Assembly (NCBI RefSeq): GCF_024138165.1
Contig: NZ_CP100002.1
Coordinates: 1 to 64,000, forward strand
Origin: Halorussus vallis
Lineage (GTDB): Archaea > Halobacteriota > Halobacteria > Halobacteriales > Haladaptataceae
Direction: 5' to 3'
DNA: 64,000 nt
Made by a program: the position numbers and the translations under genes. Shown here in pieces: positions 34,723-59,954 of this stretch (its first letter is position 1; every line of letters begins with the position of its first letter). The notes under the pieces were generated by a model. It was not told where the DNA came from. It saw only the letters and a list, made by a program, of their open reading frames with translations, and searched no databases.

Positions 34723-34746
34723 CTTTGCGTAGATATGTGAATCTGA

Positions 34747-34759
34747 CCGGTAAAAAAGC
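34747..34759 (-). promoter_or_regulatory. TATA element of the RdfA-like gene
   Basis: GCTTTTTTACCGG on the minus strand, centred about 31 bases before the ATG at 34722. Confidence 0.5.
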
Positions 34760-35469
34760 GTTCGCTCGCGCGTCGGGACGAAACTGCGCCGGGCGACCGC
34801 CGATGAGTCCCGTTTCTCGCTGTCCACTTGCTCCTCAGAGGACGCGGCTACTGTCGACGGGACGAATCACTGGCCTCGACTAATCGTTACAACGCTATTT
34901 CTGTAACTCCCCTCCGATACGAACGGTGGTGTAATCTCCGGTCGCGGTCGTCTTCACTACGTGAATCGCCGGTACGTCGGTGTCCGTCGCGGACCAAGTA
35001 AGGTGTTCTATTATTCAAAACGAGGCTGGACGTGCTCGTCCGAAGTTCGCCGGCGGTGACCGATGTCGGACCGTACCGATGCCGTCGTTCTCCCGAAGTC
35101 ACAGAACGAGCGCAGTGGCAGTCTACCGGCTAATGCCCGGTGAACAAGATGTAACTCTGACGACACTCGGCACCGAATCCGCCGCTCTGCGGCGAGGCAC
35201 GTTCGACCGGTCGTCGAGCGTAAAACCGCTCGACAGGTGGACGATGTTCTACGATAGAGAACGGATTTTGACCCCGAGGAAAGGACGAGAATAACTAGGT
35301 AGCGTGAGAACCTGGAACACGGTCCATCTACGGCCAGCCGAATCGGACGATTCGCGCGTCGTCCGACGGCGCGCCGTCGGACCGCGTTCTGATATGGTGA
35401 ACTGTAATCCGGCGAACGAACTCCTCGGCGGGGAGAAATCGGCGAGCGATTCGGTACCACGGTCCGAAT

Positions 35470-35478: not shown

Positions 35479-35502
35479 GACGGGATTACGACGGTACGTG
35501 TG

Positions 35503-37833
35503 ATGCGAACAGATTCAGCGGACGGAGTCCACCGACCCTCCGTCGAACGGCGCGTCGACGACCTCCTCGAACGGATGACCCTGGAGGAGAAGGCGGCGCA
35601 ACTCGGCTCGGTCAACGCCGAGAAGTTGCTCGACGACGACGGAAACCTCGACCGGGCGGCGGCCGAGGAACACCTCGCCGACGGCATCGGTCACCTGACC
35701 CGAATCGGCGGCGAGGGAAGCCTCGCCCCGCGCGACGCCGCCGAGCGGACCAACGAACTGCAGGAACTGTTGGCCGAGGAGACGCGACTCGGCGTCCCCG
35801 CCGTGCCCCACGAGGAGTGCCTGAGCGGCTACATGGGACCGCAGGGCACCACGTTCCCCCAGACGATGGGGCTCGCGAGCACGTGGTCGCCCGACCTGGT
35901 CGAGGAAGTCACGTCGACCATCCGCGAGCAGTTGGAGGCCATCGGCACGGCCCACGCGCTCTCGCCGGTGCTCGACGTGGCCCGCGACCTCCGGTGGGGC
36001 CGGGTCGAGGAGACGTTCGGCGAGGACCCCTACCTGGTCGCGGCGCTGGCCTGCAGTTACGTCGACGGCCTCCAGGGCGACGGCGACGGCATCGCGGCGA
36101 CGCTCAAGCACTTCGCCGGCCACGGCGCGGGCGAGGGGGGCAAGAACCGAAGTTCGGTCAACGTCGGCCGGCGGGAACTCCGTGAAACCCACCTGTTCCC
36201 GTTCGAGGCGGCGGTCCGGACCGCCGACGCCGAGGCGGTGATGAACGCCTACCACGACATCGACGGCGTGCCGTGCGCCAGCGACCGGTGGCTGTTGACC
36301 GACGTGCTCCGGGGCGAGTGGGGCTTCGACGGGACGGTGGTTTCGGACTACTACAGCGTCGAATTCCTGCGGAGTGAACACGGCGTCGCGGCCTCCGATC
36401 GGGAGGCCGGCGTGATGGCGGTCGAGGCCGGCATCGACGTCGAACTCCCCTACACCGACTGCTACGGCGACCAACTGGTCGACGCCGTGGAGAACGGCGA
36501 ACTCGCCGAGGAAACCCTCGACGCGGCGGTTCGCCGGGTGCTCCGCGCGAAGGCCCGGAAGGGACTACTCGACGACCCGTACGTCGACGCCGACGCGGCC
36601 GCCGAACCGTTCGGAACCGACGAGGCCGAAGAACTCACCACGCGCGCCGCCCGCGAGTCGATGACCCTGCTGAAGAACGACGGCGACCTTCTGCCGCTGG
36701 CCGGCGACGACCTCGACTCGGTCGCGGTCGTCGGGCCGAAGGCCGACGACGCCCAGGAGATGCTGGGCGACTACGCCTACGCCGCCCACTACCCCGAGGA
36801 GGAGGTCGAACTCGACGCGACGACGCCGCTCGACGCGGTCGAGTCCCGCGGCGAGTCGGCCGGTTTCGAGGTGCGCTACGAGCGAGGGTGTACGACGACT
36901 AGTCCCTCGACCGACGAGTTCGACGCGGCCGCCGAGGCGGCGGCCGAGGCCGACGTCGCGGTCGCGTTCGTCGGCGCGCGCTCGGCGGTCGACTTCTCGG
37001 ACTTCGACGAGGCCCAGGTCGACAATCCGAGCGTCGCCACCAGTGGCGAGGGCTGCGACGTGGTCGACCTCGACCTGCCCGGCGTCCAGCAGGAACTCGT
37101 CGAAACCGTCCACGAGACGGGGACGCCGCTGGTCGTCGTCGTGGTTAGCGGCAAGCCCCACTCCATCGAGTGGATCGCCGGGAACGTCCCCGCAGTCGTC
37201 CAGGCGTGGCTCCCCGGCGAGCGCGGCGGCGAGGGCGTCGCCAGCGTGCTGTTCGGCGAGCACAACCCCGGCGGCCACCTCGCGGTTTCCGTCCCGCGGT
37301 CGGTCGGCCAGCTTCCGGTCCACTACAGCCGCAAGCCCAACACCGCCAACGAGGAGTACGTCTACTCCGAGAGCGCGCCGCTGTACCCGTTCGGCCACGG
37401 CCTGAGCTACACCGACTTCGAGTACGGCGACCTCTCGCTGTCGACCGACGCGCTCGAACCCGCCGGGCGTATCGCGGCGGAGGTGACGGTCCGAAACGCC
37501 GGCGACAGGGCGGGCCACGACGTCGTCCAGTTGTACGCCAGCGCCGAGAACCCCAGCCAGGCCCGGCCGGTCCAGGAACTCGTCGGCTTCGAGCGGGTCC
37601 ACCTCGACGCGGGCGAGGCCAAGCGCGTGCGCTTCGAGGTCGACGCCTCCCAACTCGCGTTCCACGACCGCGACATGAACCTCGCCGTCGAGGAAGGCCC
37701 CTACGAGTTCCGCGTCGGCCACTCGGCGAGCGACACCGTCGACGCGGCCTCGTTCGAGGTGACCGCGACCAAGGAGGTGCCCGCGACCGGTCGGACCTAC
37801 TTCACCGAGACGCGGGTCGAGGACGCCGAGTAG
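35503..37833 (+). CDS. Glycoside hydrolase family 3 protein (beta-xylosidase/beta-glucosidase type)
   Basis: A 776-residue GH3 enzyme with all three usual parts: the N-terminal barrel (TFPQTMGLASTW, TLKHFAGHGAGEGGKNR), the alpha/beta sandwich domain (ESMTLLKNDGDLLPLAG, GKPHSIEWIAG) and a C-terminal fibronectin-like domain (YPFGHGLSYTDFEY, then VRNAGDRAGHDVVQLYA). The nucleophile Asp is in GTVVSDYYSVEF near residue 282, with Tyr where many relatives have Trp. No signal peptide, so it cleaves imported oligosaccharides in the cytoplasm. ATG 35503 is preferred to the GTG at 35500. Position beside the pentose genes favours beta-xylosidase. Confidence 0.9.
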   Translation: MRTDSADGVHRPSVERRVDDLLERMTLEEKAAQLGSVNAEKLLDDDGNLDRAAAEEHLADGIGHLTRIGGEGSLAPRDAAERTNELQELLAEETRLGVPAVPHEECLSGYMGPQGTTFPQTMGLASTWSPDLVEEVTSTIREQLEAIGTAHALSPVLDVARDLRWGRVEETFGEDPYLVAALACSYVDGLQGDGDGIAATLKHFAGHGAGEGGKNRSSVNVGRRELRETHLFPFEAAVRTADAEAVMNAYHDIDGVPCASDRWLLTDVLRGEWGFDGTVVSDYYSVEFLRSEHGVAASDREAGVMAVEAGIDVELPYTDCYGDQLVDAVENGELAEETLDAAVRRVLRAKARKGLLDDPYVDADAAAEPFGTDEAEELTTRAARESMTLLKNDGDLLPLAGDDLDSVAVVGPKADDAQEMLGDYAYAAHYPEEEVELDATTPLDAVESRGESAGFEVRYERGCTTTSPSTDEFDAAAEAAAEADVAVAFVGARSAVDFSDFDEAQVDNPSVATSGEGCDVVDLDLPGVQQELVETVHETGTPLVVVVVSGKPHSIEWIAGNVPAVVQAWLPGERGGEGVASVLFGEHNPGGHLAVSVPRSVGQLPVHYSRKPNTANEEYVYSESAPLYPFGHGLSYTDFEYGDLSLSTDALEPAGRIAAEVTVRNAGDRAGHDVVQLYASAENPSQARPVQELVGFERVHLDAGEAKRVRFEVDASQLAFHDRDMNLAVEEGPYEFRVGHSASDTVDAASFEVTATKEVPATGRTYFTETRVEDAE

Positions 37834-37919
37834 CCCGTCGCGGCGTTCTCGGACTTTCTTCTCCGTCTCCTACTCTGCTTGCTGGCTGGACGCGGCGCTG
37901 TTCGGAATTTTATGTCGAA

Positions 37920-37955
37920 GCGTCCCGCGGCGCGTTCGAACGCGCCGCGGGACGC
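37920..37955. terminator. Perfect 36-bp palindrome between convergent genes
   Basis: GCGTCCCGCGGCGCGTTC at 37920-37937 is followed by its exact reverse complement to 37955. It lies between the convergent ends of the first GH3 gene (37833) and the FAH-family gene (38042), a natural place for a bidirectional terminator or mRNA-stabilising hairpin. Confidence 0.5.
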
Positions 37956-38041
37956 GAGCAGTGACAGGACAGTTGCTTTCGGACGATACGTCGGTAGCGC
38001 GTTAGCGCGAGTGGGCTCGGTCGGCGGCCGCGGCGGTCGAC

Positions 38042-38926
38042 TCAGACGGTGACCGTGTCGTTGACGAGTCGGCCGATGCGGTCGATGTCGATGGTGACTT
38101 CATCGCCCTCGACGAGCGTGAACGTCTCCGGCGGGACGAGCGCGGTGCCGGTGAGCAACACGAGCGTCTCGGGCAGGCTGTTGTGCCGGCGGAGGTAGGA
38201 GACGAGCTCTTCGCACGTGGTCGCCATCTCGCCGGTCGTGGTCGAACCCTCGTAGACGGTTTCGCCGTCGCGCTCGATGGACAGCGACATCGTGAGGTCG
38301 TGGGGGTCGCCGACGGTTTCGGGCGTGGCGACGCAGGGGCCGACCGAGCAGCACTTGTCGTACACCTTCGCCTGCGGGAGGTACAGCGGATTCTCGCCCT
38401 CGATGTCGCGGCTGGAGACGTCGTTGCCGACGGTGTAGCCCACGACCTCGCCGCGGTGGAGCACCACGCCGAGTTCCGGTTCCGGGACGTTCCACTCCGA
38501 GTCGCCGCGGACGCCGATGGATTCGAGCGGGCCGACAGTCCGCGAGGGCGTCGCCTTCAGGAACAGCTCCGGGCGCTCGCTGTCGTAGACGTCGATGTAG
38601 ACCTCGGGTTTGCCGCTCTCGGACTTACGGGCTTCCTCGCTGATGCGGTAGGTGACGCCCGCGGCCCACACCTCCTCGGCGACGACCGGTTGGACGGCGT
38701 CGGTTTCGAGAATCACGGGGTCGACCGGTTCGGCGTCCGGGATTCGGTTGCGGGCCACCTCGTCGACGGACGCGCCGTTGGCGTTCGCCGCTCGGCAGAG
38801 GTCCCGGAACGAACTGAGGTCGGCGGTGGCCGCGGTCAGGTCGTAGGCATCTCCGTCTTCGTTCACCGCGACGAGAGACGCAGTGGCGGAACTGCACTCG
38901 CTACCGGAGAGTCGGTAATAGCGCAT
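38042..38926 (-). CDS. xacE: FAH family protein, probable 2-keto-3-deoxypentonate dehydratase
   Basis: A 294-residue fumarylacetoacetate hydrolase-family protein, the length of Haloferax XacE. Metal ligands are expected in NVPEPELGVVLHRG (Glu-x-Glu, near residue 147) and GYTVGNDVSSRDIEGENPLY (Asp near 167). In the pentose pathway XacE turns 2-keto-3-deoxyxylonate into 2-oxoglutarate semialdehyde. FAH proteins are versatile, so the assignment leans on neighbours: XacD, XacA and XacF are all within 5 kb. A TATA element at 38946-38957 indicates its own leaderless promoter. Confidence 0.85.
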   Translation of the reverse strand: MRYYRLSGSECSSATASLVAVNEDGDAYDLTAATADLSSFRDLCRAANANGASVDEVARNRIPDAEPVDPVILETDAVQPVVAEEVWAAGVTYRISEEARKSESGKPEVYIDVYDSERPELFLKATPSRTVGPLESIGVRGDSEWNVPEPELGVVLHRGEVVGYTVGNDVSSRDIEGENPLYLPQAKVYDKCCSVGPCVATPETVGDPHDLTMSLSIERDGETVYEGSTTTGEMATTCEELVSYLRRHNSLPETLVLLTGTALVPPETFTLVEGDEVTIDIDRIGRLVNDTVTV

Positions 38927-38945
38927 AGTTGGTCATGTGTGGATA

Positions 38946-38993
38946 CCGTTAAAAGAGTATCGCCGCAGTGGGGTGAAACGGACCGGGGTGAAA
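38946..38993 (-). promoter_or_regulatory. Promoter of the xacE-like gene with upstream direct repeats
   Basis: The TATA tract CTCTTTTAACGG (minus strand, 38946-38957) is about 25 bases before the ATG at 38926. Just upstream, GGGGTGAAA occurs twice on the plus strand (38970-38978 and 38985-38993), spaced 15 bases start to start; this could be a regulator site. Confidence 0.4.
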
Positions 38994-39084
38994 TCCGTCG
39001 CGTCGCTCGGTCGAACGGTGCGAATCCGCGATTCGGTCGGGTCGACGTCGCGTCGCGCGCGGTGAGTGCTCGGAGTCGGTTCGG

Positions 39085-39156
39085 TTATTCGGTGAACGCC
39101 GTGAAGCCGGCAGCGACGCCGGCGGTGAAACCGGTGGCGCGAGTTCGGCTAGTCAT
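39085..39156 (-). CDS. Possible 23-residue peptide coupled to xacD
   Basis: The XacD stop codon overlaps an ATG (ATGA at 39153-39156) that opens a 23-codon frame ending in TAA at 39085-39087. The product has a Gly/Ala/Phe/Thr-rich core (TGFTAGVAAGFTAF) with small-residue spacing reminiscent of a short membrane helix. The overlap is the only positive evidence; it could be chance. Confidence 0.25.
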   Translation of the reverse strand: MTSRTRATGFTAGVAAGFTAFTE

Positions 39157-40388
39157 TCGTCAAACAACTCCTCGCCCTCGACCATGTGCTCCTCGACGGT
39201 GTCGAAGTCCAGCGTCAGGCCGAGGCCGGGCTTCTCCGGAATCTCCATCCGGCCCTCCCGGATGAGGCCGCTCTCCTCGACGAGGTCCTCCCACCAGCCC
39301 AACTGATAGGAGTGGTACTCGACCGCCAGCGAGTTCGGGATGGCCGCGGCGACCTGGGCCGACGCCATCGTGCCGACCGGCGAGGAGACGTTGTGCATCG
39401 CCACCGGCACGTAGTACATGTCGGCGATGTCTGCGACCTTCCGGGTTTCGCGCATCCCGCCCACTCGGGGCAGGTCGGGCGCGATGATGTCGACCGCCTG
39501 GGGCTCCAGCAGGGTGCGCTGGCCGTGCTTGCGGTAGACGTTCTCGCCGACCGCAATGGGCGTCGTCGTCGACTGGGTGACGCTGGCCTGGACGTCATGG
39601 TTCTCCGGCGGGACGGGGTCCTCGAGCCACCAGACGTCGTACTCCTCGAGTTTGCGGGCGAGCCGTTTCGCGCTGCCCGCCGAGAATGACCAGTGGCAGT
39701 CGAACGCGACGTCGGCGCGGTCGCCGACGGCCTCGGTGACCGCCTCGACGATCTCGACCTTGTGGTCGATCTCGGGGCCGCGGAGGTGGCGGTTGGCGCG
39801 GTCCTTCTCGTGACCCGAGGGCACGTCGAGGTCGAACTTGATGGCGTCGTAGCCGAGTTCCTCGACGACGCGGACGCCTTCCTCGGCGCAAGCCTGGGGG
39901 TCGGCCTCGTCCTCGGTGTGGAGGTCGCAGTACACCCGAACCTCGTCGCGGTACTTCCCGCCGACGAGTTGGTAGGCGGGTACGTCGAGCAGTTTGCCCG
40001 CCACGTCGTGGAGCGCGATTTCGATGCCCGAGATGGCGGAGACGACCTTTCCGGAGATGGAGCCCTCGCCGCTCATCTTCTGGATCATGTGCTCGTAGAG
40101 ACGGTCGATGTCGAGGGGGTTCTCGCCGACCACGAACGGCTTCATCCGCTCGATAATCTCGGCGTCGCCGCCGCCCCAGTAGGACTCGCCGATGCCGGTG
40201 ACGCCCGCGTCGGTGTAGACCCGCACGAGAATCCAGGGGTAGTTGCCGTCGACCATCGTGGTCTGGACGTCGGTGATCTTCGCGTCGCGCACGCCGCCCC
40301 GGGAGTTCGTGAGACCCATCGTCTCGCCCGAGAGGTCGCGCATCGTATACTCCGCGTTCGGGTCGCGGAGCTTCGCAAGGTCAACCAT
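39153..40388 (-). CDS. xacD: Pentonate (D-xylonate/L-arabinonate) dehydratase, enolase superfamily
   Basis: A 411-residue mandelate racemase-type dehydratase, as long as Haloferax XacD. Catalytic motifs: KFDLD (Lys184, Asp186), the metal ligand Asp230 with His232 (DCHWSF), Glu256 (LEDPVPPEN), Glu282 (VGENVYR) and the late AMHNVSSPVG. It differs from the KxK enzyme at 3600. Reaction: removes water from xylonate (or arabinonate) to give 2-keto-3-deoxypentonate. The start at 40388 is supported by a TATA-like tract at 40413-40423 on the minus strand. Neighbours supply the steps before and after. Confidence 0.88.
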   Translation of the reverse strand: MVDLAKLRDPNAEYTMRDLSGETMGLTNSRGGVRDAKITDVQTTMVDGNYPWILVRVYTDAGVTGIGESYWGGGDAEIIERMKPFVVGENPLDIDRLYEHMIQKMSGEGSISGKVVSAISGIEIALHDVAGKLLDVPAYQLVGGKYRDEVRVYCDLHTEDEADPQACAEEGVRVVEELGYDAIKFDLDVPSGHEKDRANRHLRGPEIDHKVEIVEAVTEAVGDRADVAFDCHWSFSAGSAKRLARKLEEYDVWWLEDPVPPENHDVQASVTQSTTTPIAVGENVYRKHGQRTLLEPQAVDIIAPDLPRVGGMRETRKVADIADMYYVPVAMHNVSSPVGTMASAQVAAAIPNSLAVEYHSYQLGWWEDLVEESGLIREGRMEIPEKPGLGLTLDFDTVEEHMVEGEELFDE

Positions 40389-40412
40389 TGCGTGCGAGAT
40401 ATTCCCAGGGGC

Positions 40413-40423
40413 GGTAGTAAAGG
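40413..40423 (-). promoter_or_regulatory. TATA element of the xacD-like gene
   Basis: CCTTTACTACC on the minus strand, centred about 30 bases before the ATG at 40388. Confidence 0.4.
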
Positions 40424-40498
40424 TTGTGAATTGCCCGACGGGTTGCCGGGGCGTCGGTACTCGATTTCGACGCGGTCGCCAGTTCCGGACTCGGCGAC

Positions 40499-41602
40499 CT
40501 ACTCGACCGAAACGCGCTCGCCGCGCTCGGCGGCCTCGTAGATGGCCGCGAGCGCGCGCATGTCGACGAGGGCGTGTTCGCCGTCGGGAGACGGCGCGAC
40601 CCCGCGAAGGACGCGGTCGGCGAAGTAGTCGAACTCCTCGGTCATCTCGTCGCCCATCAGGTCGCGGCGACCGTCGTCGACGACGACCTCGCGGCCGTCG
40701 GGTTGGCGGAGCGAGAGCGTCTGGGGCGTCTGGCCGAGGAACGCGGGTTCGAGTATCAGTTCGCCGTCGGTGCCCACGACCCGGAAGTGACCCGACAGGT
40801 GGGAGTGCTGGCTGGCGGTGCAGGCGGCGTAGGTGCCATCGTCGAACTCGACGGTGAAGGTGGCGTGCTGGTCGGGCACGTCGCCGAACGCCCGGTTCTC
40901 CGAGTGCATCTGGGCGGTCGCGCTCGTCGGGTCGGCGTCGAGGACGAAGCGGGCGGTGTTGAGCGGGTAGATGCCCAGGTCCATCACCGTCGCGCCGTAG
41001 CCGGCGAGGTCGGGGTCGAGGCGCCACTGGTCGGGGTCCTCCGAGACCACGTCAAGCATCTGCTGGCCCATGTGGCCGTGGACCGCGACCGGGTCGCCGA
41101 CGGCCCCGTCCCGGAGCAGTTCGCGCATCCGCCGGACCTGCGGGTCGGTCTGCATCCGGTAGGCGACCATGAGCGGCACGTCGGCGTCCCCGGCGGCCGC
41201 GACCAGTTCCTCGGCCCGCTCGACGGTCGCCTCCACCGGTTTCTCGCAGAGGACCGCCTTCCCGTGGTCGGCGGCCGCCTCGACGTACGGGAGGTGGTAG
41301 GCGTTGGGCGTGCAGACGTAGACCGCGTCGTACTCGTCGGTCGCCGCACCGTCGACGAACTCGTCGTACGTGACGGTGGCGGCGATGGTGTCGGTTTCGG
41401 CCTCGTCGGCGACCGACTCGGCCTTCTCGCGGCTACTGCTGACGACGACGGTCGTCTCGCAGAACTTCGAGTCGGCGACCGCGGGGATGGCCTGTTCGCG
41501 GGTCCACCAGCCGAGGCCGACCATCGCGAGGCGGAGCGTCCCCGACTCCAGTTCCTCCCAGTCACGCCGCCTGACGCTGCGCAGGTAATCGTCGACTGCC
41601 AT
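40499..41602 (-). CDS. xacA: D-xylose 1-dehydrogenase, Gfo/Idh/MocA family
   Basis: A 367-residue oxidoreductase closely resembling haloarchaeal xylose dehydrogenase. The start ([10 protein letters not shown]), the Rossmann turn [14 protein letters not shown] (near residue 27), CETTVVVSS and the family EKP motif with the catalytic Lys (LCEKPVEAT, near 121) match the remembered Haloarcula/Haloferax enzyme, as do [13 protein letters not shown] and the substrate-side [10 protein letters not shown]. Reaction: D-xylose (or L-arabinose) plus NADP to the pentonolactone. ATG 41602 is chosen by family length and a TATA-like tract at 41626-41637. It is divergent from the XacF-like gene. Confidence 0.9.
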
Positions 41603-41625
41603 ACTCGCGTGGTTCGGGCCGACCG

Positions 41626-41637
41626 GCAAAAGTGTAG
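41626..41637 (-). promoter_or_regulatory. TATA element of the xacA-like gene
   Basis: CTACACTTTTGC on the minus strand, centred about 29 bases before the ATG at 41602. Confidence 0.4.
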
Positions 41638-41785
41638 TGGACCCACCCGCGGGCCGCGTTCGAGAGTCCGCCCGGCGCGACGCTGAGGGGGACGCGGCCG
41701 CGCACCCGCGCGGTCGCGCCCCCGACCCCGGCGAATCCGTGCCGAACCGTAACAGTGGTATGGGACGATTCTGAAATAACGCACG

Positions 41786-43228
41786 ATGCCGGAGAAGAAC
41801 TACGTCAACGGAGAGTGGGTAGAATCGGAAACCGGCGACACCGTCGAGGTCGCGAATCCCGCCGACCCGAGCGAAGTCGTCGCGAGTTACCAGCAGTCGA
41901 GCGCGGCCGACGCGACCGCGGCCGTCGAGGCCGCGGCCGCGGCCCAGGACGAGTGGGCGGCCACGCCCGGTCCCGAGCGCGGGCGCATCCTCCGCCGGGC
42001 GGGCAACTGGCTCGCCGACCGCAAGGAGGGGCTGACCGAACAGCTCGTCGCCGAGGAGGGCAAGGCCTACGCCGAGGCCAACGGCGAGGTCCAGCGCGCC
42101 ATCGACATCTTCCACTACTTCGCGGGGAAGGCCGCCGACCTCGGCGGCACCGTCAAGGGGCCGAGCGCGAGCGACCAGCGCCTCTACACGGTCAAGGAGC
42201 CGGTGGGCGTCGCCGCGCTCATCACGCCGTGGAACTACCCCATCGCGATTCCGGCGTGGAAGCTCGCGCCCGCGCTCGCCGCCGGGAACACCGTCGTCCT
42301 GAAGCCGGCGTCGGTCGCGCCCGGCGTCGCGCTCGAACTCGCGCAAGCGCTCGACGAGGCCGGCCTCCCTGACGGCGCGCTCAACGTCGTCACCGGGCCG
42401 GGCAGCGCCGTCGGCACCGAGTTCATCGAACACGACGCGGTCGACGCCGTCTCGTTCACCGGCAGCAGCGAGGTCGGCCAGATGGTCTACGACCAGGCGA
42501 CCGACGCCGGCAAGCGCGTCCAGACCGAACTCGGCGGCAAGAACCCGACCGTGGTCAGCGCCTCGGCCGACCCCGCCGAAGCCGCCGACATCGTCGCCAG
42601 CGGCGGGTTCGGTACCACCGGCCAGTCGTGCACCGCGTGTTCGCGGGCCATCGTCCACGAGGACGTCTACGACGAGTTCGTCGACGAACTCGTCGACCGC
42701 GCCAAGTCCGTCGACGTCGGCCCCGGCCTCGACCACGAGATGGGCCCGCAGGTTTCCGAGGGTGAACTCGAATCGACGCTGGAGTACATCGAGGTCGCCG
42801 AGAACGAGGGCGCGACGCTTGCGGCGGGCGGCGGCGTCCCCGAGTCGGCCGAAACCGAGACGGGCTACTTCGTCGAACCGACCGTCTTCGTCGACGTCGA
42901 CAACGACATGCGCATTGCCCAGGAGGAGGTCTTCGGCCCGGTGGTCGCCGTCATCGAGGTTTCGGACTTCGAGGAGGGCCTCGGAGTCGCCAACGACGTC
43001 CCCTACGGACTGTCGGCCAGCGTCGTCACGAACGACCACTCGGAGGCCAACCGATTCGTCCGCGACGTCGAGGCGGGCGTCGCCAAGGTGAACGCCAAAA
43101 CGACCGGACTCGAACTCCACGTCCCGTTCGGCGGGTTCAAGCGGTCGTCCAGCGAAACCTGGCGCGAGCAGGGCGACGAGGGTCTGGAGTTCTACACCAT
43201 CGAGAAGACCGTCTACGACAGCTACTGA
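41786..43228 (+). CDS. xacF: 2-Oxoglutarate semialdehyde dehydrogenase, aldehyde dehydrogenase family
   Basis: A 480-residue aldehyde dehydrogenase. It begins with the family pattern [21 protein letters not shown]; the oxyanion Asn is in [17 protein letters not shown] (near residue 153), the general base Glu in [12 protein letters not shown] (near 250) and the nucleophile Cys in [12 protein letters not shown] (near 285). Length matches Haloferax XacF, which makes 2-oxoglutarate from its semialdehyde and so feeds pentose carbon into the citric acid cycle. The family alone would not fix the substrate; the adjacent XacA, XacD and XacE genes do. It is divergent from the XacA-like gene across 183 bases. 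Confidence 0.87.
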
Positions 43229-43295
43229 GTTCGAAGGTCGATTCCGAACACCGAGGAACGACCGCGACCGAGTAACCTGGTCGCGGTCGGGTCTG

Positions 43296-44162
43296 TCATT
43301 CCGTTCGGTCGAGTCGCCGCATCGGCACCACGCCCGGTTCGGCGATGTCGACCCTGTCCCCTACTTCCACGACCTCTATCACCCGCGGGTAGGCGAACGA
43401 CTTCGCGTGCTCGTGGAGCGCCGTCGGGTCGGCGGTGACGCCCTTCCACGTGTCGTAGTGGACCGGCAGCACCCGGTCGGCCCGCACCGCGTTCGCCGCT
43501 TCGACGACCTGGCTCTCGTCCATGTACCACCGGGTCCGGCGCGGCCCGCCGTCGGCGCCCAGCGGAAGGCGGCCGACCGTCCCGACGGTGAACGACGCGA
43601 CGTCGACGTCGAACTCGGCCCCGATTTCCTCGAACGCCTCGGCGGGTCGGCTGTCGCCGGCGACGAACAGCGTCTCGTCGCCGCACTCGACGACGTACGA
43701 GACGGCGAACTTCGTGTCGGGGTCGTTCGCCGGCCGGACGTGGACCGTCAGGTCGCCGATCGAGAGTTCGTCCCCCTCCTCGACCGACGCGCGTGCGTCG
43801 GCGGGAATCGTCTCGTCGCCGTCGTAGTCGTACTCCTCGTGGGCGTCTCCGGGAGTGAAGACGGGTGCGCCGGTGTTCGCGGCGATGGGGGCGACGGAGG
43901 GCGGATGGAGGTGGTCGACGTGCTCGTGGGTGACCAGCACGGCGTCGCAGTCGGTCACCGCCGCGGGGTCGACCGGCACGGGAATCATCCGGACGGTCAC
44001 GGGCGGATTGCCGTCGCCGAAGTACGGGTCGACGTACAGCGTCGCCCCGGGCGACCGGACCACGAACCCGTGACAGCCGAGGTACCACAGCGAAAGGCCC
44101 TCGGGGTCGGCGGCTTCGACTTCTGATTCGACGAACCACGAATTCCAGTTGCTCGTTACCAT
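43296..44162 (-). CDS. UlaG-like metallo-beta-lactamase fold protein, probable pentonolactonase
   Basis: A 288-residue metal hydrolase whose start resembles UlaG-type lactonases ([11 protein letters not shown], then [13 protein letters not shown]). The metal motif is VTHEHVDHL near residue 87, followed by VAGDSRPAE (near 185) and [10 protein letters not shown] (near 240). UlaG opens ascorbate-6-phosphate lactone; in this place, between XacF and GH3 genes, hydrolysis of xylono- or arabinono-lactone is the natural role, equivalent to the Haloferax lactonase step XacC. I am not certain that it is the direct orthologue of XacC, so no symbol is given. The ATG at 44162 is chosen because the family pattern begins there. 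Confidence 0.82.
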
Positions 44163-44245
44163 GGATGGCTCACGACCATGGGCGTACGCGGGAACGCGGC
44201 CCACATAAAACGTTCGCGGTCGGCCGTAGTTGCCCCGTGAGTGGT

Positions 44246-46489
44246 TCACTCGACGCGGTCGGGCATCTCGAACGACCCCGTCAGGTTGCCGACCCGGACG
44301 CGGTAGGTCCCCGACTCGACGACACGGCCGGTCCGGGGTTTGTAGAAGCCGAAGTGCTCGGCGGGAATCGAGAGCGAGACCGTCGCGGATTCATCGGGCG
44401 ACAGTTCGACGCGCTCGAACCCGACGAGTTTCCGCGCGGGCTGGACCCGCGAACTCGTCTCCTGGCGGGCGTACGCCTGGACCGTCTCGGTGGCGGGGCG
44501 GTCGCCGGCGTTGGTCACCTCCACCGCGAGTTCGACGACCGGCGCGTCGCCGTTCGGCGACGCGCCGGTCGTGGAAACGCGGAGGTCGTCGTAGGCTAAC
44601 TCGGCGTAGCTGAGGCCGTGGCCGAAGGGGTACAACGGGTCGTAGGAGTCGGGGTGTTCGTCCTCGCCGATGGGCGTGGGGTGCGCGAGGCGGTCGAAGT
44701 GCTGGGGGAGGTCGCCGGTCGACTTCGGAATCGACGCCGGCAGGCGGCCGCTGGGGTCGTTGTCGCCGAACAGCGTCTCGGCGACGGCCGCGCCGCCCTC
44801 GGTGCCCGGATAGTAGGCCATGAGTATCGCGGGGACGTGCTCGTCCATCCAGTCGACGATGAGCGGCCGGCCGGTGATCAGGACGCCGACGACCGGCGTG
44901 CCGGTGGCGTGAACCCGCCGGACGAGTTCGCGCTGGGCTTCCGAGAGCCGCAGTTCCGACCGGGTCGGCCACTCGCCGGTTTCGACGCCCGACTGGACCG
45001 AGGGGCCGAACTCGTGGAGGTACCAGCCCTCGCCGAGCGCCAGCACCGCGACGTCGGCCGCTTCGGCCTTCTCGACCGCGGCGTCGACGTCGAGTTCCTC
45101 GTTGAGCGTCGTCCCCTGCTCGTAGTTGACGGTCCCGTCGGCCCGACTTCGAATCGCTTCGAGCACCGTCTCGCCGGGAACGTCGGTCGGTTCGGTGACG
45201 CTCCAGCCGCCGAGTTGGTGGACGATGTCGTCGGCGTTCGGCCCGCCGACGAACACGTCCTCGTCGCCCGACAGTGGGAGGAGGCCGTCGTTCTTCAGCA
45301 GGGTCATGCTGTCGCGGGCGGCCGCCTTCGCGGTCCGGCGGTGCTCCTCGGAGGCGAGCGTCTCGCGGGCGCGGTCCTCGTCGACGTAGGGGTCCTCGAA
45401 CAGTCCGAGTTCGAACTTCAACCGGAGGACGCGCCGGACGCTCTCGTCGACGAGGTCGGCGTCCAGGTCGCCGCTCTCGATCAGGTCGGTCAGGGACGCG
45501 GCGTGCCCGACGTTGCCGACCGACTCGACGTCGAGGCCCGCCTCGCGGGCCTGCCGGATGCCGTCGCGGTGGTCGGCGGCGGTGCCGTGGTCGTCGTGGA
45601 GGTGGCGGACGCCGGCCCAGTCGGAGACGACGTGGCCGTCGAAGCCCAGTTCCTCGCGCAACAGGTCGGTCAGGAAGTACGCCGACCCGTGCATCGGTTC
45701 GCCGTTGACGGAGTTGTACGAGGGCATCACCGACTCGACGCCCGCGCCGAGCGCGGCTTCGAACGGCGGGACGAAGACGTTTCGGAGTTTGTACTCCGAG
45801 ACGTCGACCGGGGAGGCGTCCTCGCCGCGCTCGGGTTCGCTGTAGGCCGGGAAGTGCTTCGCGGTGGCGACGACCGAATCTGGGTCGCCGAGTCCGTCGC
45901 CCTGGTAGCCCCGGACCTTCGCCGCGGCCATCTCGGCGCAGAGTCGGGGGCTCTCGCCGAAGGTTTCGAAGATGCGACCCCACCGGGGGTCGCGGCCCAC
46001 GTCGCAGGTCGGCGAGTAGTTTTGATGGGCGCCGGTCCGGCGGACCTCGGTCGCGGTGATGCTCGCGGCGGCCTCGACGGCTTCGGGGTCCCACGTCGCC
46101 GCGGTGCCGAGTCCGTTCGGGAACACGGTCGACCCGGCGACGTAGGCGTGGCCGTGGACCGCGTCGACGTTCAGCAACAGCGGAATCCCCAGTCGGGTTT
46201 CCTCGGTGGCGACGCGCTGGAGTTCGTTGGCGGCGTCGACGACGTCGCCGACCCGCTTGGCGGGCGACCCGGCCCAGCCGAACGGTGCGGCGACCCCGAG
46301 GTGGTGGTCGCGGACGGCGTCCTTCACGTCGTCGAGGTCGTTCGACTGAAAGTCGAGGTGGCCCAGCCACGTGCCGACGAGTTGGCCGGCCTTCTCGGCG
46401 TCGGTCATCCGGTCGAGGAGGTCGTCGATTCGGTCGGCGGTCGCGGCGTCCGACCGGAGATAGCGTGGTCCGTCTTCGTCCTCGTGCAT
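44246..46489 (-). CDS. Glycoside hydrolase family 3 protein, second copy
   Basis: A 747-residue GH3 enzyme with barrel, sandwich and fibronectin-like domains. Landmarks are LLLNVDAVHGHAYV (near residue 104), the substrate-side ATAKHFPAYSEPERGED (near 210), nucleophile Asp in GHVVSDWAGVRH (near 292), SMTLLKNDGLLPLSGDE (near 395) and the end domain PLYPFGHGLSYAELAY. It is a distant paralogue of the GH3 protein at 35503 and resembles beta-glucosidase or xylosidase types acting on oligosaccharides. There is no signal peptide. It has AT-rich promoter sequence at 46496-46527 and is divergent from the HEAT gene across 249 bases. Confidence 0.9.
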   Translation of the reverse strand: MHEDEDGPRYLRSDAATADRIDDLLDRMTDAEKAGQLVGTWLGHLDFQSNDLDDVKDAVRDHHLGVAAPFGWAGSPAKRVGDVVDAANELQRVATEETRLGIPLLLNVDAVHGHAYVAGSTVFPNGLGTAATWDPEAVEAAASITATEVRRTGAHQNYSPTCDVGRDPRWGRIFETFGESPRLCAEMAAAKVRGYQGDGLGDPDSVVATAKHFPAYSEPERGEDASPVDVSEYKLRNVFVPPFEAALGAGVESVMPSYNSVNGEPMHGSAYFLTDLLREELGFDGHVVSDWAGVRHLHDDHGTAADHRDGIRQAREAGLDVESVGNVGHAASLTDLIESGDLDADLVDESVRRVLRLKFELGLFEDPYVDEDRARETLASEEHRRTAKAAARDSMTLLKNDGLLPLSGDEDVFVGGPNADDIVHQLGGWSVTEPTDVPGETVLEAIRSRADGTVNYEQGTTLNEELDVDAAVEKAEAADVAVLALGEGWYLHEFGPSVQSGVETGEWPTRSELRLSEAQRELVRRVHATGTPVVGVLITGRPLIVDWMDEHVPAILMAYYPGTEGGAAVAETLFGDNDPSGRLPASIPKSTGDLPQHFDRLAHPTPIGEDEHPDSYDPLYPFGHGLSYAELAYDDLRVSTTGASPNGDAPVVELAVEVTNAGDRPATETVQAYARQETSSRVQPARKLVGFERVELSPDESATVSLSIPAEHFGFYKPRTGRVVESGTYRVRVGNLTGSFEMPDRVE

Positions 46490-46616
46490 TGGTCACATAT
46501 ATTTACTCGGCACGGTATAAATCCTCGGGAGGGCGCGGGATACGGGCGTCCAGTCCGTCGATATCGGGCGAATCCGGCCGGCAATCGTCGGCCACCGGAC
46601 GGAACCACGCGCGCAT

Positions 46617-46650
46617 CGGCGTTGCCGGCACGACTGTGCCGGCAACGCCG
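46617..46650. repeat. 15-bp perfect inverted repeat between divergent genes
   Basis: CGGCGTTGCCGGCAC (46617-46631) and its exact reverse complement (46636-46650) flank a four-base loop, GACT. The site lies between the divergent starts of GH3 (46489) and the HEAT protein (46739), so it is not a terminator; an operator or a structured leader is possible. Confidence 0.5.
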
Positions 46651-46738
46651 GCAGCCCCGACCGATTTTCGACGTCGCGGGTGCTCCCACGGGTCGCCGAA
46701 CCCGCACGTATTTAAATGACGGACCGCATCCTACGTCC

Positions 46739-47647
46739 ATGCCAACGGACTCGTCGAACCCGCTCGACGGAATCGACCCGGAGTCGGTGTCCCCGGACGA
46801 CGTCGACGAAGCGGCGGTGCGCGCCGCGCTCGACTCCTCGAACCCGCTGGTCCGCCAGCGGGGCATGATGGTCTGCGAAACCCTCGCGGCGGCCGACGTC
46901 GACGCGGTCGAACCGTTCCTCGACGACGTCGCGGCGCTCGCTTCCGCCGACAACGCCGCCGTCGGACTGCGCGCCATCGCCGTCCTCGACGCCGTCGCCG
47001 AGGACGAACCGGCGGCGCTCGACGGCAGGGTCGCCGGCCTCGCCGAAGCGGCGGCAAGCGACCTCGTGGACGTCCAACTCACCGCCGCGACCGCACTCGG
47101 AAAACTCGTCGTCGAGCGGCCCGACCTCGTGGGACCGTACGCTCGCCGACTGGTCGAGGCCGTTCGCGCCACCGAACTCGAACCCGGCATCCCCGACGTC
47201 GGCGACGTCGTGGACGACCGGGTGACCCGGCAGACGATTCAGGAGCACGAGGAGGGAGAGCGCAGGCGGCGCATGTCCGGCCGGCGGACGCTCGTCAACG
47301 TCGCGGTGGCGGTCGCCGAGACGGAACCGGAAACGGCGTTCGATGCGGTCGACGACCTCGCCGCGCTGCTGGACGACGTCGACCCGGGCGTCGCCGGCGC
47401 CGCCGTCGACGCGCTCGCCGAACTGGCGGCCGCCGACCCGGACGTCGTCGCGCCCGTCCGCGACGACATCGTCGACTGCCTCGACCACGACCGAACCTTC
47501 GTCCGTGCGCGTGCGATTCGGGCGCTCGGCGAACTCGGAGACGACGCGGTCGTGCCGAAACTCGAAACCGTCGCGGAGACGGACGACGACGAGGACGTTC
47601 GGGAACTCGCCGCCGACACCGTCGACTTCCTCGCGGGAGCGTCGTAG
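46739..47647 (+). CDS. HEAT-repeat protein
   Basis: A 302-residue acidic protein made of helical HEAT-like repeats. Repeat units are visible as alternating helices such as SSNPLVRQRGMMVCETLA, DNAAVGLRAIAVLDAVAED, SDLVDVQLTAATALGKLV, VDPGVAGAAVDALAELAA and RTFVRARAIRALGELGDDA. A charged insert (QEHEEGERRRRMSGRR) splits the array near residue 170. Such proteins are protein-binding scaffolds; no enzymatic motif is seen. It probably forms a single-gene unit. A TATA-like TATTTAAATG at 46709-46718 fits a leaderless start. Confidence 0.82.
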   Translation: MPTDSSNPLDGIDPESVSPDDVDEAAVRAALDSSNPLVRQRGMMVCETLAAADVDAVEPFLDDVAALASADNAAVGLRAIAVLDAVAEDEPAALDGRVAGLAEAAASDLVDVQLTAATALGKLVVERPDLVGPYARRLVEAVRATELEPGIPDVGDVVDDRVTRQTIQEHEEGERRRRMSGRRTLVNVAVAVAETEPETAFDAVDDLAALLDDVDPGVAGAAVDALAELAAADPDVVAPVRDDIVDCLDHDRTFVRARAIRALGELGDDAVVPKLETVAETDDDEDVRELAADTVDFLAGAS

Positions 47648-47733
47648 TTGGCTTGTGTATCGCGAACGTGCCCGCACATCGCGACGCGGAGCCCGACCGG
47701 GACCGCTCGGGTCAGTACCGAGACGGGGCCGCT

Positions 47734-47967
47734 TCACTCGTTCATCGCCCGCTTCGTGCAGTACCAGTAGGCCGCGCTGAAGAAGACGAATCCGCCGCCG
47801 ACCAGGACGGCGTCGATGACCAGGATGGGGAACGTTGAGTCGCCGGGGCCGACGAACAGGGCCGACAGACCGAGCAGGAGTCCCATCGCAATGAGCACGC
47901 CGAGTATCAGCCGCATCTGCTCGCGTTGAGCGCAGAGGAGATCCAACAGCGTCGACGTCTTCGACAT
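47734..47967 (-). CDS. Small membrane protein downstream of alpha-glucuronidase
   Basis: A 77-residue protein with two hydrophobic segments, at about 22-40 and 46-65, and a basic C-terminus (AYWYCTKRAMNE). The ATG at 47967 is preferred to one nine codons upstream. It follows the alpha-glucuronidase gene by 63 bases on the same strand. Its ending resembles the truncated gene at the right edge of the window (AIWYCKTNA), which also sits by an Opp-type operon, so a small family is likely. The function is unknown. Confidence 0.7.
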   Translation of the reverse strand: MSKTSTLLDLLCAQREQMRLILGVLIAMGLLLGLSALFVGPGDSTFPILVIDAVLVGGGFVFFSAAYWYCTKRAMNE

Positions 47968-48030
47968 ACTGACTATTCGACCGACGCGCGTCAAAAACCT
48001 AGTGGTGCCGCCGGCGCGACTCGTCGGAGT

Positions 48031-50148
48031 TCAGACTCCGCCCGTCTTGTTCCCAACTCCGCCGTCCGATTCCCGTCCTCGCTCGTTCGGAACCCGCCCG
48101 CGCTCGTCGGGAATCCCCGAGTACTCGTAGAAGTACGCGGTCAGCGCGTCGCGCCACCGCTCGGCCTGGGCGACCTGCTCGTCGAATCGCTCGGCGACGT
48201 GGCGGTGTCGCCGGTCGTCTATCTTCCCGTCGAGGTCGCGCCACAGTTCCCGGAGACGTTCGGCCGCCTCGACGCCTGTGAAGCAGTTATCGTAGAGTCG
48301 CTGGACGACGGTGGTTCCGTCGGCGAGTTCGTGGTCCCAGGGGAGGTGGTGGAAAAAGAGGAGGAGTTTCTCGGGGCACTCTTCGACCGACTCGTATCGC
48401 GCGGCGACCGGGTCGCGGTACTGGCCGGCGTAGCCGCTCCCGCTCTCGGTCCGGTCGACGCCGATACCGTCCTCGGTCGCGCCGTGGTAGCCCGGCCACT
48501 CGTCTGGCGAGGGGTAGTAGTGGTTCTCCAGGTACTCCTCGCCGTTGTGCATCATGTGCATCAGTCCGAGGCCGCCGGTCGTGTAGTCGACGTTGGCCTC
48601 CCAGGAGTCGCGGAGAATCTTGGCGACGGTGGACACGACCTCCCCGTCGGTTCCGAACGTCCGGCGGACCCACTCGTCGGTTATCTCGTCGGCCGGCAGT
48701 TCGGGGTTCCAGGCGACGCGCCCGAAGGCGTAGAGGTTCGCCTGGGCGAGATAGTGGCCGGTCCAGTTGTAGTCCTCGCCGACGCTCCCGACGCCGACGA
48801 CGCCCTCGCCGTCACCCCGGAACAGCGACCGAACCGGTGTTTCCTCGCCGTCGGCGCGGGTGTCGAACTCGAAGATCTCCTTCCACATCGGGAGGTGGTA
48901 GGTCGCGTGGACGCCCTGGCCGGTGTACTCCCCGGTGACCTGGAACTCCAGGCCGAGGTCGGTGTCCGGCATCGCGCCGAACAGCGTCGACACCGGTTCC
49001 CGTGGTTGGAAGTCGATGGGGCCGTTCTTCACCTGGACGGTGACGTTGTCGGCGAAGTCGCCGTCGAGCGGTTCGAAGGTGTCGTAGGCCTGGACCGCCC
49101 GGTCCTCGTGGGAGCCGTAGACGAACGCGCGCCACCAGACCCGACCGCCGTGGGGTTCGAGCGCCTGTGCGATGGCGTTGGCCCCGTCGACGTGGTCGCG
49201 GCCGTAGTCGTAGGGACCGGCCTGGCCCTCCGAGTCCGCCTTGACGAGGAAGCCGCCGAAGTCGGGAATCAGGTCGTACACCTCGTCGGCCTTCTGGCGC
49301 CACCACGCCCGGACGTCGTCGTCGAGCGGGTCGGCGGTGTCGAGGTCCCCGACCAGCATCGGGGCCGCGAAGTTGACCGAGAGGTAGGTGCGAATCCCGT
49401 AGCGACGGAACACCGACGCCAGGCCGGTGAGGTCTTCGAGCCGCCGGGTTTCGAGCAGTCGCCACCCTTCGAACGCGTCGAACGCCGCGTTGGCGCTCTC
49501 CCGCGGCGGTTTGGTCGTGTTGACGTTGTTGAGGACGATTCCGTTGATACCGACCGAGGCCAGCAGGCGGGCGTAGTCCTCGTAGCGGTCCCGGAGGTCC
49601 GGAAGTCGTTCGAAGTCGAAGATGGACTCGCCGGCGTACCCGCGCTCGACCGACCGGCGGAACGGGGTGTCCCAGTGGTTTAGCAGTCGGTTCGGGTAGG
49701 CCGGTTCCTCCCGAACGTCGAGGTCGGCGATAGGGTCGCCGACGCTCAACAGTCCCAGGAGGTGGAAGGTTCCGTACACCAGTCCGCGGTCGGTGGGCGC
49801 GGTCACGACCAGACAGTCGGCGTCGTTCCACTCAACCGCCCGGAGGAGATAGCCGCCGTCGGCGAGGGATTCGACCTCGTCGACGGGGACCGACTCGGCG
49901 ATCATCGCCATGTCGTTGGGGGTGCCGACGGCGAGGAACCCGTCGACCGTCGTCGGCGGGTGTTGCCAGAGGTGCGGGTCCTCGCCGAGCAGTCCGGGCA
50001 GTGCCCGCCGAAGTTCGTCCCGGACCGCACTGCACTCGGGGGACTTCTCCACGACGTACGCGTGTCTACACCGCCGTCGGTACGAGTCGAGGCGCTCGCC
50101 GTCGGCGACGCGGTCGTACCGGAGCCAACAGTTGTCGTACTGCTCCAT
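48031..50148 (-). CDS. Alpha-glucuronidase, glycoside hydrolase family 67
   Basis: A 705-residue GH67 enzyme, the usual family length. Highly characteristic stretches are NHWDTPFRRSVERGYAG (near residue 157), GINGIVLNNVNTT (near 198), FLVKADSEGQAGPYDYGRDH (near 298; its Glu is the general acid in relatives), VQVKNGPIDFQPREP (near 372; Asp acts as base) and GLEFQVTGEYTG (near 403; second base Glu). It removes 4-O-methylglucuronic acid from the end of short xylo-oligosaccharides. No signal peptide is visible, so it works on imported aldouronic acids. It is divergent from the binding protein gene at 50420. The C-terminal tail is low in complexity. Confidence 0.93.
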   Translation of the reverse strand: MEQYDNCWLRYDRVADGERLDSYRRRCRHAYVVEKSPECSAVRDELRRALPGLLGEDPHLWQHPPTTVDGFLAVGTPNDMAMIAESVPVDEVESLADGGYLLRAVEWNDADCLVVTAPTDRGLVYGTFHLLGLLSVGDPIADLDVREEPAYPNRLLNHWDTPFRRSVERGYAGESIFDFERLPDLRDRYEDYARLLASVGINGIVLNNVNTTKPPRESANAAFDAFEGWRLLETRRLEDLTGLASVFRRYGIRTYLSVNFAAPMLVGDLDTADPLDDDVRAWWRQKADEVYDLIPDFGGFLVKADSEGQAGPYDYGRDHVDGANAIAQALEPHGGRVWWRAFVYGSHEDRAVQAYDTFEPLDGDFADNVTVQVKNGPIDFQPREPVSTLFGAMPDTDLGLEFQVTGEYTGQGVHATYHLPMWKEIFEFDTRADGEETPVRSLFRGDGEGVVGVGSVGEDYNWTGHYLAQANLYAFGRVAWNPELPADEITDEWVRRTFGTDGEVVSTVAKILRDSWEANVDYTTGGLGLMHMMHNGEEYLENHYYPSPDEWPGYHGATEDGIGVDRTESGSGYAGQYRDPVAARYESVEECPEKLLLFFHHLPWDHELADGTTVVQRLYDNCFTGVEAAERLRELWRDLDGKIDDRRHRHVAERFDEQVAQAERWRDALTAYFYEYSGIPDERGRVPNERGRESDGGVGNKTGGV

Positions 50149-50419: not shown

Positions 50420-52237
50420 ATGACATCCGATTCCGACCGGGGCGAGTATAGCGACGTGATTAGCCGCCGCAGGATGTTGGCGGTCGCCGGGGCGTCCGGT
50501 ATAGCTACCCTGGCGGGTTGTTCAGGCGGCAACCAGGACGGTACCACGACCGATTCCGGCACCACGACCGATTCCAGCGGTGGTGGCGGCGGAACCCAGA
50601 CGTCCGGCGGTGGTGGCGGCGCCACCGTCCACGACGCGACATATATTGCAGCTTATACGGGTAACCCGGTCGACCTCCACTTCAACTCCTCGGCGAGCCA
50701 GAACTATAGCTGGCCCGCGGCGCGGAGCGTCTTCGCACCGTTTCTCAAGTACTCGTTCAACAAGAAGAAGTTCCTGTACGGCGCACTCGACGACCTGAAG
50801 ATCGAGGGTCAGGAGGCCACGCTCACCTTCCGCGACGACCTGAAGTGGGACAACGGCGACGACTGGACCACCGAGGACCTCGACGTCCAGCTCCAGTTGG
50901 CGAAGAAGACCGGCAGTTCGCTGTGGGGCTATCTGGACGACTACAAAATCGTCGACAAGAAGACGGCCAAACTGATGCTCTCTGGGCCGACGAACCCCCA
51001 GATTATCAAGTTCGAACTCACCAACTTCTTCGTCGATACCAAGAAGGAAATCCACAGCAAGTGGCTCGACAAGCCCGCCGAGGAGTACCTGCAGTGGGCG
51101 TACGAGGACCCCGTGGCGAGCGGCATGTGGTCGTTCGTGAAGAAGGGCCGCCAGGCGTTCGAGTTCGAACGCAACGAGCGGTTCTACAAGTCCGACAACG
51201 TCAACTTCGAGAACTTCACCATCGAGAGCTTCGGCGGGAACACGGCTCAGCACCAGGCGCTGCTCAAGGCCGACCACATCGACGCGGCGCCCAGCCTGTT
51301 CACGCCGCCGCAAATCGCGAAGCGATTCCCGAAACACGTCGTCGAGGTCAACATTCCCGCGAAGTGGGGGTACGGCATCGTGTTCAACCACAACGACCCC
51401 GACTTCGGCAATCGGAAGGTCCGCCAGGCCATCGCCCACGTCATCAACCGTCAGTCCATCGTCGACAACGCCGGCCCGCGGACGAAGTTCGTGGCGCCGA
51501 TTCCCTGCGGTATCGCGCCCAAGGACCAGAAGAAGTGGCTCGGCGACTGGTACGGCGACTTCGAGACCTACGGCCCCAAGGCGAGCCAGACCGACAAGGC
51601 GACCAAACTGCTCGAAGAGGCCGGCTATACCAAGAAAAAGGGCACGTGGCGCAACAGTAGCGGCAAGAAGCTCGGCGGTAACTACTACTCGCCGGCGGGC
51701 TGGACCGACTGGACGACGATGACCCAGACGGTCACCAGCCAGCTCAACGACTTCGGCTTCGACTTCTCCATCAGTACGAAGCCGACCAACGACTGGTTCA
51801 ACCAGTACTCCGGCAGCAACTTCAAGATGGGCAGCTTCTACTGGCTGCCCGGCGGGTCGCGGTCGGCGTTCCCGTACTTCCCGCTGTACTACCAACTCTG
51901 GGCCAGCGACATCGGCGGCGGCCACAACTACCGGGAGAAGGCCGACACCGAACAGACCGTCCCCGGTCGGAACGGCGGCGAGATGACGCTCAACCCGCTA
52001 AAGACGACCGAGAAGATCGCACAGCAGCCCAACGACGAGAAGTCACGGCCCTTCGTCCAGAAGTCGGCGTGGCACAACCACATCGAACTGCCGTTCCTCG
52101 GCCTGGTGTCGAAGTACGAGCAGTCGTGGACCACGAACGACGAGTGGACCACCGCCAAGAAGGACAGCGCCAATCGGCAGGTCAAGTGGCCCCAGTGGTG
52201 GTGGCCCCACGAGGGCGACCTCCAGTACAAAGGATAG
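50420..52237 (+). CDS. Solute-binding lipoprotein of an Opp/Dpp-type ABC importer
   Basis: A 605-residue extracellular binding protein (family 5 type). The N-terminus has a Tat signal, SRRRMLAVAGASGIATLAGC, ending in a lipobox with the lipidated Cys, then a Ser/Gly/Thr-rich linker to about residue 75. The mature part shows the family pattern: FAPFLKYSF, LKWDNGDDWTTEDL, FELTNFFVD, RKVRQAIAHVINRQSI near residue 335. It hands substrate to the permeases that follow 49 bases later. The alpha-glucuronidase is immediately divergent, so aldouronic or xylo-oligosaccharides are the best substrate guess; peptides remain possible. The ATG at 50420 sits properly before the signal. Confidence 0.9.
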   Translation: MTSDSDRGEYSDVISRRRMLAVAGASGIATLAGCSGGNQDGTTTDSGTTTDSSGGGGGTQTSGGGGGATVHDATYIAAYTGNPVDLHFNSSASQNYSWPAARSVFAPFLKYSFNKKKFLYGALDDLKIEGQEATLTFRDDLKWDNGDDWTTEDLDVQLQLAKKTGSSLWGYLDDYKIVDKKTAKLMLSGPTNPQIIKFELTNFFVDTKKEIHSKWLDKPAEEYLQWAYEDPVASGMWSFVKKGRQAFEFERNERFYKSDNVNFENFTIESFGGNTAQHQALLKADHIDAAPSLFTPPQIAKRFPKHVVEVNIPAKWGYGIVFNHNDPDFGNRKVRQAIAHVINRQSIVDNAGPRTKFVAPIPCGIAPKDQKKWLGDWYGDFETYGPKASQTDKATKLLEEAGYTKKKGTWRNSSGKKLGGNYYSPAGWTDWTTMTQTVTSQLNDFGFDFSISTKPTNDWFNQYSGSNFKMGSFYWLPGGSRSAFPYFPLYYQLWASDIGGGHNYREKADTEQTVPGRNGGEMTLNPLKTTEKIAQQPNDEKSRPFVQKSAWHNHIELPFLGLVSKYEQSWTTNDEWTTAKKDSANRQVKWPQWWWPHEGDLQYKG

Positions 52238-52286
52238 TTAACCTCAAGGGAACGCCAACCGAACTCGACTACTACGTTCACAACCT

Positions 52287-58691: not shown

Positions 58692-58930
58692 GAGGTCGTT
58701 CATCGGCTTTGCGACCGCTCGACCGGCGGCCTGCTGTCGGCGGGGTTCGCTTGGCGGACCAAGCATGCTGACGCTTCACTTCCATAAACGCAGATTTTCC
58801 GAAAAGTCGCCCCGCGGTGGTCCTCGGTTTGGTCGTCGTCTCCCCGGTGCACAGCCGGTTTTCGTCCGAACACCGCAGAATAGTAACGGAAAGCATTAAT
58901 AGGCACGGATAGATGATTATAGACCAGAGT

Positions 58931-59953: not shown

Positions 59954-59954
59954 C

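Follow-up and report, generated by a model that had tools for sequence, protein, structure and literature searches.

Bacterial aldouronate clusters are known from Geobacillus, Paenibacillus, and Thermotoga, and xylose in these bacteria usually passes to an isomerase and a kinase. The archaeon Haloferax volcanii has an oxidative route for xylose and arabinose (XacA–F) and a sugar-type importer (XacGHIJK). Pentonolactonases, XacC of H. volcanii among them, belong to the SMP30 superfamily (review, PMC9795676). A GH67 gene beside glucuronate isomerase and mannonate dehydratase genes was described in Halorhabdus utahensis in 2011 (PMC3102087), and a natronoarchaeon that grows on xylan is listed as having GH67 (PMC10963439). 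Halorhabdus degrades xylose by an isomerase and a kinase, not oxidatively (PMC8551123).

Here, we analyzed a window of 64,000 nucleotides from Halorussus vallis (positions 1 to 64,000 of contig NZ_CP100002.1). Gene content and conserved co-localization make it very likely that the contig, as a circular replicon of approximately 210 kb, carries a glucuronoxylan-utilization island feeding an oxidative, non-phosphorylative pentose route, in line with what an initial annotation of the window had proposed for glucuronoxylan oligomers. The parts of the island are mostly of known kinds, and its new element is a predicted swap of the lactonase.

The island resembles the XacA–F route of H. volcanii in its Gfo6-type dehydrogenase, its candidate dehydratase of the enolase superfamily, its FAH dehydratase, and its 2,5-dioxovalerate dehydrogenase, and an XacR-like regulator is encoded nearby. 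It differs in three respects: the lactonase candidate is UlaG-like, whereas XacC is an SMP30 protein; the importer is of the family-5 oligosaccharide/oligopeptide type and not of the sugar type represented by XacGHIJK; and the route is joined to GH67, GH10, and GH3 enzymes and a glucuronate branch. The initial annotation had identified the pathway with XacA–F. Counterparts of XacA, XacE, XacF, and XacR were found, but the SMP30 lactonase corresponding to XacC is absent from the genome. Because this defining Xac part was searched for and not found, the island is a variant of the Xac pathway and not a member of it.

The bacterial aldouronate clusters share with the island a secreted GH10 enzyme, an oligosaccharide importer, and an intracellular GH67 enzyme and xylosidase, but Halorussus vallis has a predicted oxidative route to 2-oxoglutarate where they usually have xylose isomerase and kinase. 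As in the cluster of H. utahensis (PMC3102087), GH67 and a glucuronate branch occur together in a haloarchaeon, yet the predicted xylose route is oxidative, unlike the isomerase and kinase route of Halorhabdus (PMC8551123). The GH67 islands of Haladaptatus, Natrinema, Natrialba, Halogranum, Halobacterium, and Halocatena contain the same genes, with identities of up to 88% and often in the same order. Unlike the GH67-centered islands of other haloarchaea (38 neighborhoods, within 20 kb), that of Halorussus vallis includes a UlaG-like gene.

Extent of the island and its replicon

At its two ends, the contig carries the same sequence: 29,351 bases at the start (window 1–29351) match 29,352 at the end (contig C3, 210198–239549) over approximately 29.35 kb with 99.97% identity. 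This match is best explained as an assembly overlap in a circular replicon of approximately 210.2 kb. Genes were called from reading frame and third-position composition, and families were assigned by Pfam and NCBIfam scans. All eight genes named in the initial annotation were recovered at their positions, its minus-strand coordinates being 3′ ends. The mechanical open reading frames at 39153 and 40499 extend past the real starts; homologs set the starts of the enolase-superfamily dehydratase, Gfo6, and UlaG-like genes at approximately 40388, 41602, and 44162, respectively.

The island runs beyond the 64-kb window to approximately 85.8 kb of the contig, so that neither 50148 nor the end of the window marks its limit. 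Outside the window, the same contig encodes GH2, a second Gfo6, GH10a, GH4, a further dehydratase, a protein of the GDSL type, GH10b with a Tat signal, mannonate dehydratase, glucuronate isomerase, a short-chain dehydrogenase/reductase (SDR), and an XacR-like regulator; the glucuronate branch and the xylanases lie within 36 kb of GH67. The single island previously delimited at 35503–50148 does contain the genes assigned to it, but it amounts to about half of the whole. The importer was missed, as were the secreted xylanase and the glucuronate branch because they lie outside the window.

Two IclR-family regulators were found. The first (33120–33884, plus strand; PF01614/PF09339) is 49.6% identical to XacR-annotated proteins of Haladaptatus and Haloprofundus, and 22 of the 38 GH67 neighborhoods have IclR proteins whose closest match is this gene (34–56% identity). 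It lies at the island edge, and we are unsure whether it belongs to the island. The second (contig 85025–85810, outside the window) is 80% identical to an XacR-annotated protein.

Glycoside hydrolases

The GH67 α-glucuronidase gene (48031–50148, minus strand) encodes the three domains PF03648, PF07488, and PF07477, all over their cut-offs. The protein aligns over its full length with PDB 1mqp (E = 4.3e-188), the α-glucuronidase of Geobacillus. The motifs KADSE, GPIDFQ, and GEYTG are kept, and with them the catalytic Glu/Asp/Glu set, made up of the acid and the two residues, D and E, that form the base pair. To our knowledge, GH67 is known solely as a family of α-glucuronidases acting on xylan fragments. 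Signal motifs were found on GH10b and on both importer binding proteins, and the same search detected none on GH67, GH3a, GH3b, or GH10a. As no signal peptide was seen, GH67 is a candidate for the intracellular type.

GH3a (35500–37833, plus strand; PF00933/PF01915) has the β-xylosidase 7zb3 as its closest PDB chain (E = 1e-213) and the sequence VSDY at residue 281; it scores 705.6 bits against the XyloArabinosidase model NF052329, below the cut-off of 1050. It is probably an intracellular β-xylosidase that converts xylo-oligosaccharides to xylose. GH3b (44246–46489, minus strand) scores 505.6 bits against the same model and cut-off. Its closest solved chain is again a β-xylosidase, but it also resembles β-glucosidases, and it may be of either type; it occurs in just 3 of the 38 GH67 neighborhoods. 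The contig encodes two GH10 xylanases, GH10a and GH10b, of which only GH10b (contig 79178–81286, outside the window) has a Tat signal.

Importers and conserved partners

An importer operon (50420–56529) is divergent from GH67. It encodes a family-5 (oligopeptide/oligosaccharide) substrate-binding lipoprotein with a Tat motif and a lipobox (50420–52237, plus strand; PF00496), a first ABC permease (52287–53285, plus strand; PF00528) represented in 31 of the 38 neighborhoods, a second permease (53266–54294, plus strand) recognized by its open reading frame, composition, and operon position and represented in 29 of 38, and a fused double ATPase of the DppD-DppF type (54295–56529, plus strand) with two PF00005 and two PF08352 domains. 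At the end of the operon is a gene for a small conserved protein of 120 residues (56620–56979, plus strand). This protein matched no Pfam family, and its confident AF2 model (pLDDT 84.5) had no match at E ≤ 0.001 in a fold search of the PDB. A HEAT-repeat protein (46739–47647, plus strand; HEAT_2) is encoded next to GH67, and a HEAT-repeat gene is also annotated near GH67 in Haladaptatus pallidirubidus. Two conserved, uncharacterized partners, the HEAT-repeat protein and the 120-residue protein, travel with the GH67 importer locus. A second HEAT-repeat protein is encoded next to glycosidases (contig 66535–67689, minus strand).

A second Dpp-type ABC importer (58913–63347, plus strand) comprises permeases starting at 58913 and 59931 and ATPases starting at 61084 and 62202; its binding protein (contig 64292–66409) is outside the window. 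Between the two importers lies a thermosome-type chaperonin gene (57040–58659, plus strand). Divergent cpn60 genes, approximately 35% identical, are present in xylose/GH67 islands of Haladaptatus; at this identity and with occurrence in just 3 of the 38 neighborhoods, the chaperonin gene was dropped as an island member.

Predicted oxidative pentose route

The FAH-family protein (38042–38926, minus strand; PF01557) is an XacE-like candidate for the 2-keto-3-deoxypentonate dehydratase. Among solved structures, it matches best the 2-keto-3-deoxy-D-arabinonate dehydratase of Sulfolobus (2q18, E = 4.7e-58), with which it shares the motif EPEL...DVS.RD.E.ENPLYLPQ. The aldehyde dehydrogenase (41786–43228, plus strand) scores 868 bits against the 2,5-dioxovalerate (2-oxoglutarate semialdehyde) dehydrogenase model NF052305 (cut-off 750), which just 1 of 14 control genomes exceeded, and is XacF-like. 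The XacD-like candidate is an enolase-superfamily sugar-acid dehydratase (39153–~40388, minus strand; PF13378/PF02746), whose start is set by a Haladaptatus homolog with 86% identity; its superfamily is clear, and it falls below every equivalog cut-off in the NCBIfam scan. The XacA-like candidate is a Gfo6-type aldose 1-dehydrogenase (40499–~41602, minus strand) with 537.8 bits against NF041392 (cut-off 350), again exceeded by just 1 of 14 control genomes.

NF041392 extends to a Haloferax dehydrogenase whose cluster carries an annotation for the catabolism of galactonate, and the Gfo6 name by itself fails as proof of xylose specificity. Because the model spans that copy and the dehydratase lies under every equivalog cut-off, the substrates of both enzymes are left unfixed by sequence. 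It is worth asking whether the island serves mainly one or several other glycans (galacto-, gluco-, or arabino-oligosaccharides) through oxidative enzymes of a broad aldose/aldonate type. The Gfo6 and dehydratase families include galactose and gluconate members, GH3b has its β-glucosidase-like side, and the nearby GH4, GH2, and second Gfo6 genes hint at further sugars. We nevertheless consider this explanation unlikely. The window Gfo6 groups with copies from GH67/xylose islands (a clade of 13 entries, support 99/97), and the Gfo6 of the Haloferax galactose cluster falls outside that clade. The FAH and 2,5-dioxovalerate steps finish at 2-oxoglutarate, as for pentoses, and the island contains a xylanase family, GH10, adjoined by glucuronate isomerase and mannonate dehydratase. 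The presence of GH67, a family known for α-glucuronidases of xylan fragments, likewise argues for glucuronoxylan.

The same genome encodes three more Gfo6-type dehydrogenases that exceed the curated cut-off (C1:3074665, C1:508927, and C3:70157), which suggests several oxidative sugar routes.

Candidate lactonase

The candidate pentonolactonase is a UlaG-like metallo-hydrolase (43296–~44162, with an upstream ORF start at 44249; minus strand; PF12706). It contains the metal-site motifs HEHVDH, GDS, and PVHYD and scores 85 bits against the curated UlaG L-ascorbate-6-phosphate lactonase model NF008688, below the cut-off of 306. A search of the Halorussus vallis genome for SMP30 (PF08450) gave no match, with a positive H. 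volcanii control. Strong SMP30 matches are present in 27 of 39 GH67-bearing genomes versus 58 of 352 other Halobacteria, counts that treat related genomes as independent and overstate the strength of the association; Halorussus vallis is one of the 12 GH67-bearing genomes without such a match.

On this evidence, the UlaG-like protein is a likely but open candidate, at about an even chance, for a replacement pentonolactonase. It lies amid pathway genes in a genome without an SMP30 lactonase, and UlaG, the namesake of the family, is a lactonase. FAH, 2,5-dioxovalerate dehydrogenase, or Gfo6 genes occur within 10 kb in 13 of its 20 closest relatives (the best 20 of the ranking) versus 0 of 20 core paralogs, where the same treatment of related genomes as independent inflates the association, and several relatives are found in the order dehydrogenase-UlaG-dehydratase. 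A rival view, in our estimate somewhat short of an even chance, is that the protein plays no part in opening the lactone and that this step is spontaneous or catalyzed by a different enzyme, the rest of the pentose set being complete. The UlaG-like gene is present in 0 of the 38 other GH67 islands (within 20 kb of GH67), the window copy stands alone on a long branch next to the accessory clade, and SMP30 and UlaG-like proteins are encoded close together in some clusters. Furthermore, since 386 of 391 Halobacteria have at least one copy, by way of a core paralog, the family serves a general function as well. This alternative covers a single step and is compatible with a glucuronoxylan island. 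More broadly, UlaG-like metallo-hydrolases may form a second, unrelated class of archaeal aldonolactonases that replaces SMP30 XacC in haloarchaeal oxidative sugar pathways, in this case inside a glucuronoxylan island, a proposal that we regard as evenly poised; the island offers a candidate for a missing lactonase class.

Proposed degradation pathway

We infer the substrates of the island, the direction of flow, its induction, and the role of the lactonase, and propose the following pathway. The Tat-secreted GH10b xylanase would cut glucuronoxylan extracellularly, and the family-5 ABC importer (50420–56529) would take up aldouronic acids and xylo-oligosaccharides, a task perhaps shared by the second importer (58913–66409). 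Inside the cell, GH67 would strip off glucuronic acid, and xylose would be freed by GH10a together with the GH3 enzymes. Xylose would then pass through Gfo6, possibly the UlaG-like lactonase, the enolase-superfamily dehydratase, the FAH dehydratase, and 2,5-dioxovalerate dehydrogenase to 2-oxoglutarate. Because the glucuronate branch is on the same contig, the glucuronate released by GH67 has a route too: glucuronate isomerase (82528–83901), the SDR (84083–84862), and mannonate dehydratase (81293–82486) would convert it to 2-keto-3-deoxygluconate. The SDR gene adjoins that of glucuronate isomerase; its product was the one SDR considered as a counterpart of XacB, an SDR L-arabinose dehydrogenase, and its sequence assigns it no particular substrate. 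The XacR-like IclR protein (85025–85810) probably regulates the island. The island brings together in one place a predicted haloarchaeal route for using a major plant polysaccharide, starting with the secreted xylanase and ending at 2-oxoglutarate.

Conservation and distribution in haloarchaea

We surveyed 20 kb on either side of GH67 in 38 other Halobacteria with this gene. GH3a was represented in 30 neighborhoods and FAH and glucuronate isomerase in 27 each; for Gfo6, mannonate dehydratase, and the aldehyde dehydrogenase, the counts were 25, 24, and 23, respectively. The first (enolase-superfamily) dehydratase, the fused ATPase, and the small gene were represented in 21 each, and the HEAT-repeat gene, typically adjoining GH67, in 20. 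Among nine control genes of the window, seven occurred in none of the 38 neighborhoods and the other two in one and five, none at 50% identity or more. As the island genes recur around GH67 and the control genes hardly do, the clustering is far beyond chance.

Of 391 Halobacteria genomes, 39 have GH67, and these represent 25 of 86 genera. With the precedent of H. utahensis (PMC3102087), these numbers contradict the earlier view that the family is unusual in an archaeon. The GH67 tree places the window copy among 20 sequences that form a group with full support and come from several families, a mixture that fits lateral spread. This mixing, together with the absence of GH67 from all seven other sampled genomes of the genus, could also point to an island that is recently acquired, silent, or decaying. 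Such a state seems very unlikely, as every frame is intact, codon composition is typical, the catalytic motifs are kept, and the gene set is retained across many genera.

At the island edge, a gene for rod-determining factor A (RdfA, PF21811) lies at 34093–34827 on the minus strand, and RdfA-like genes with 45–48% identity occur near GH67 in 5 of the 38 genomes.
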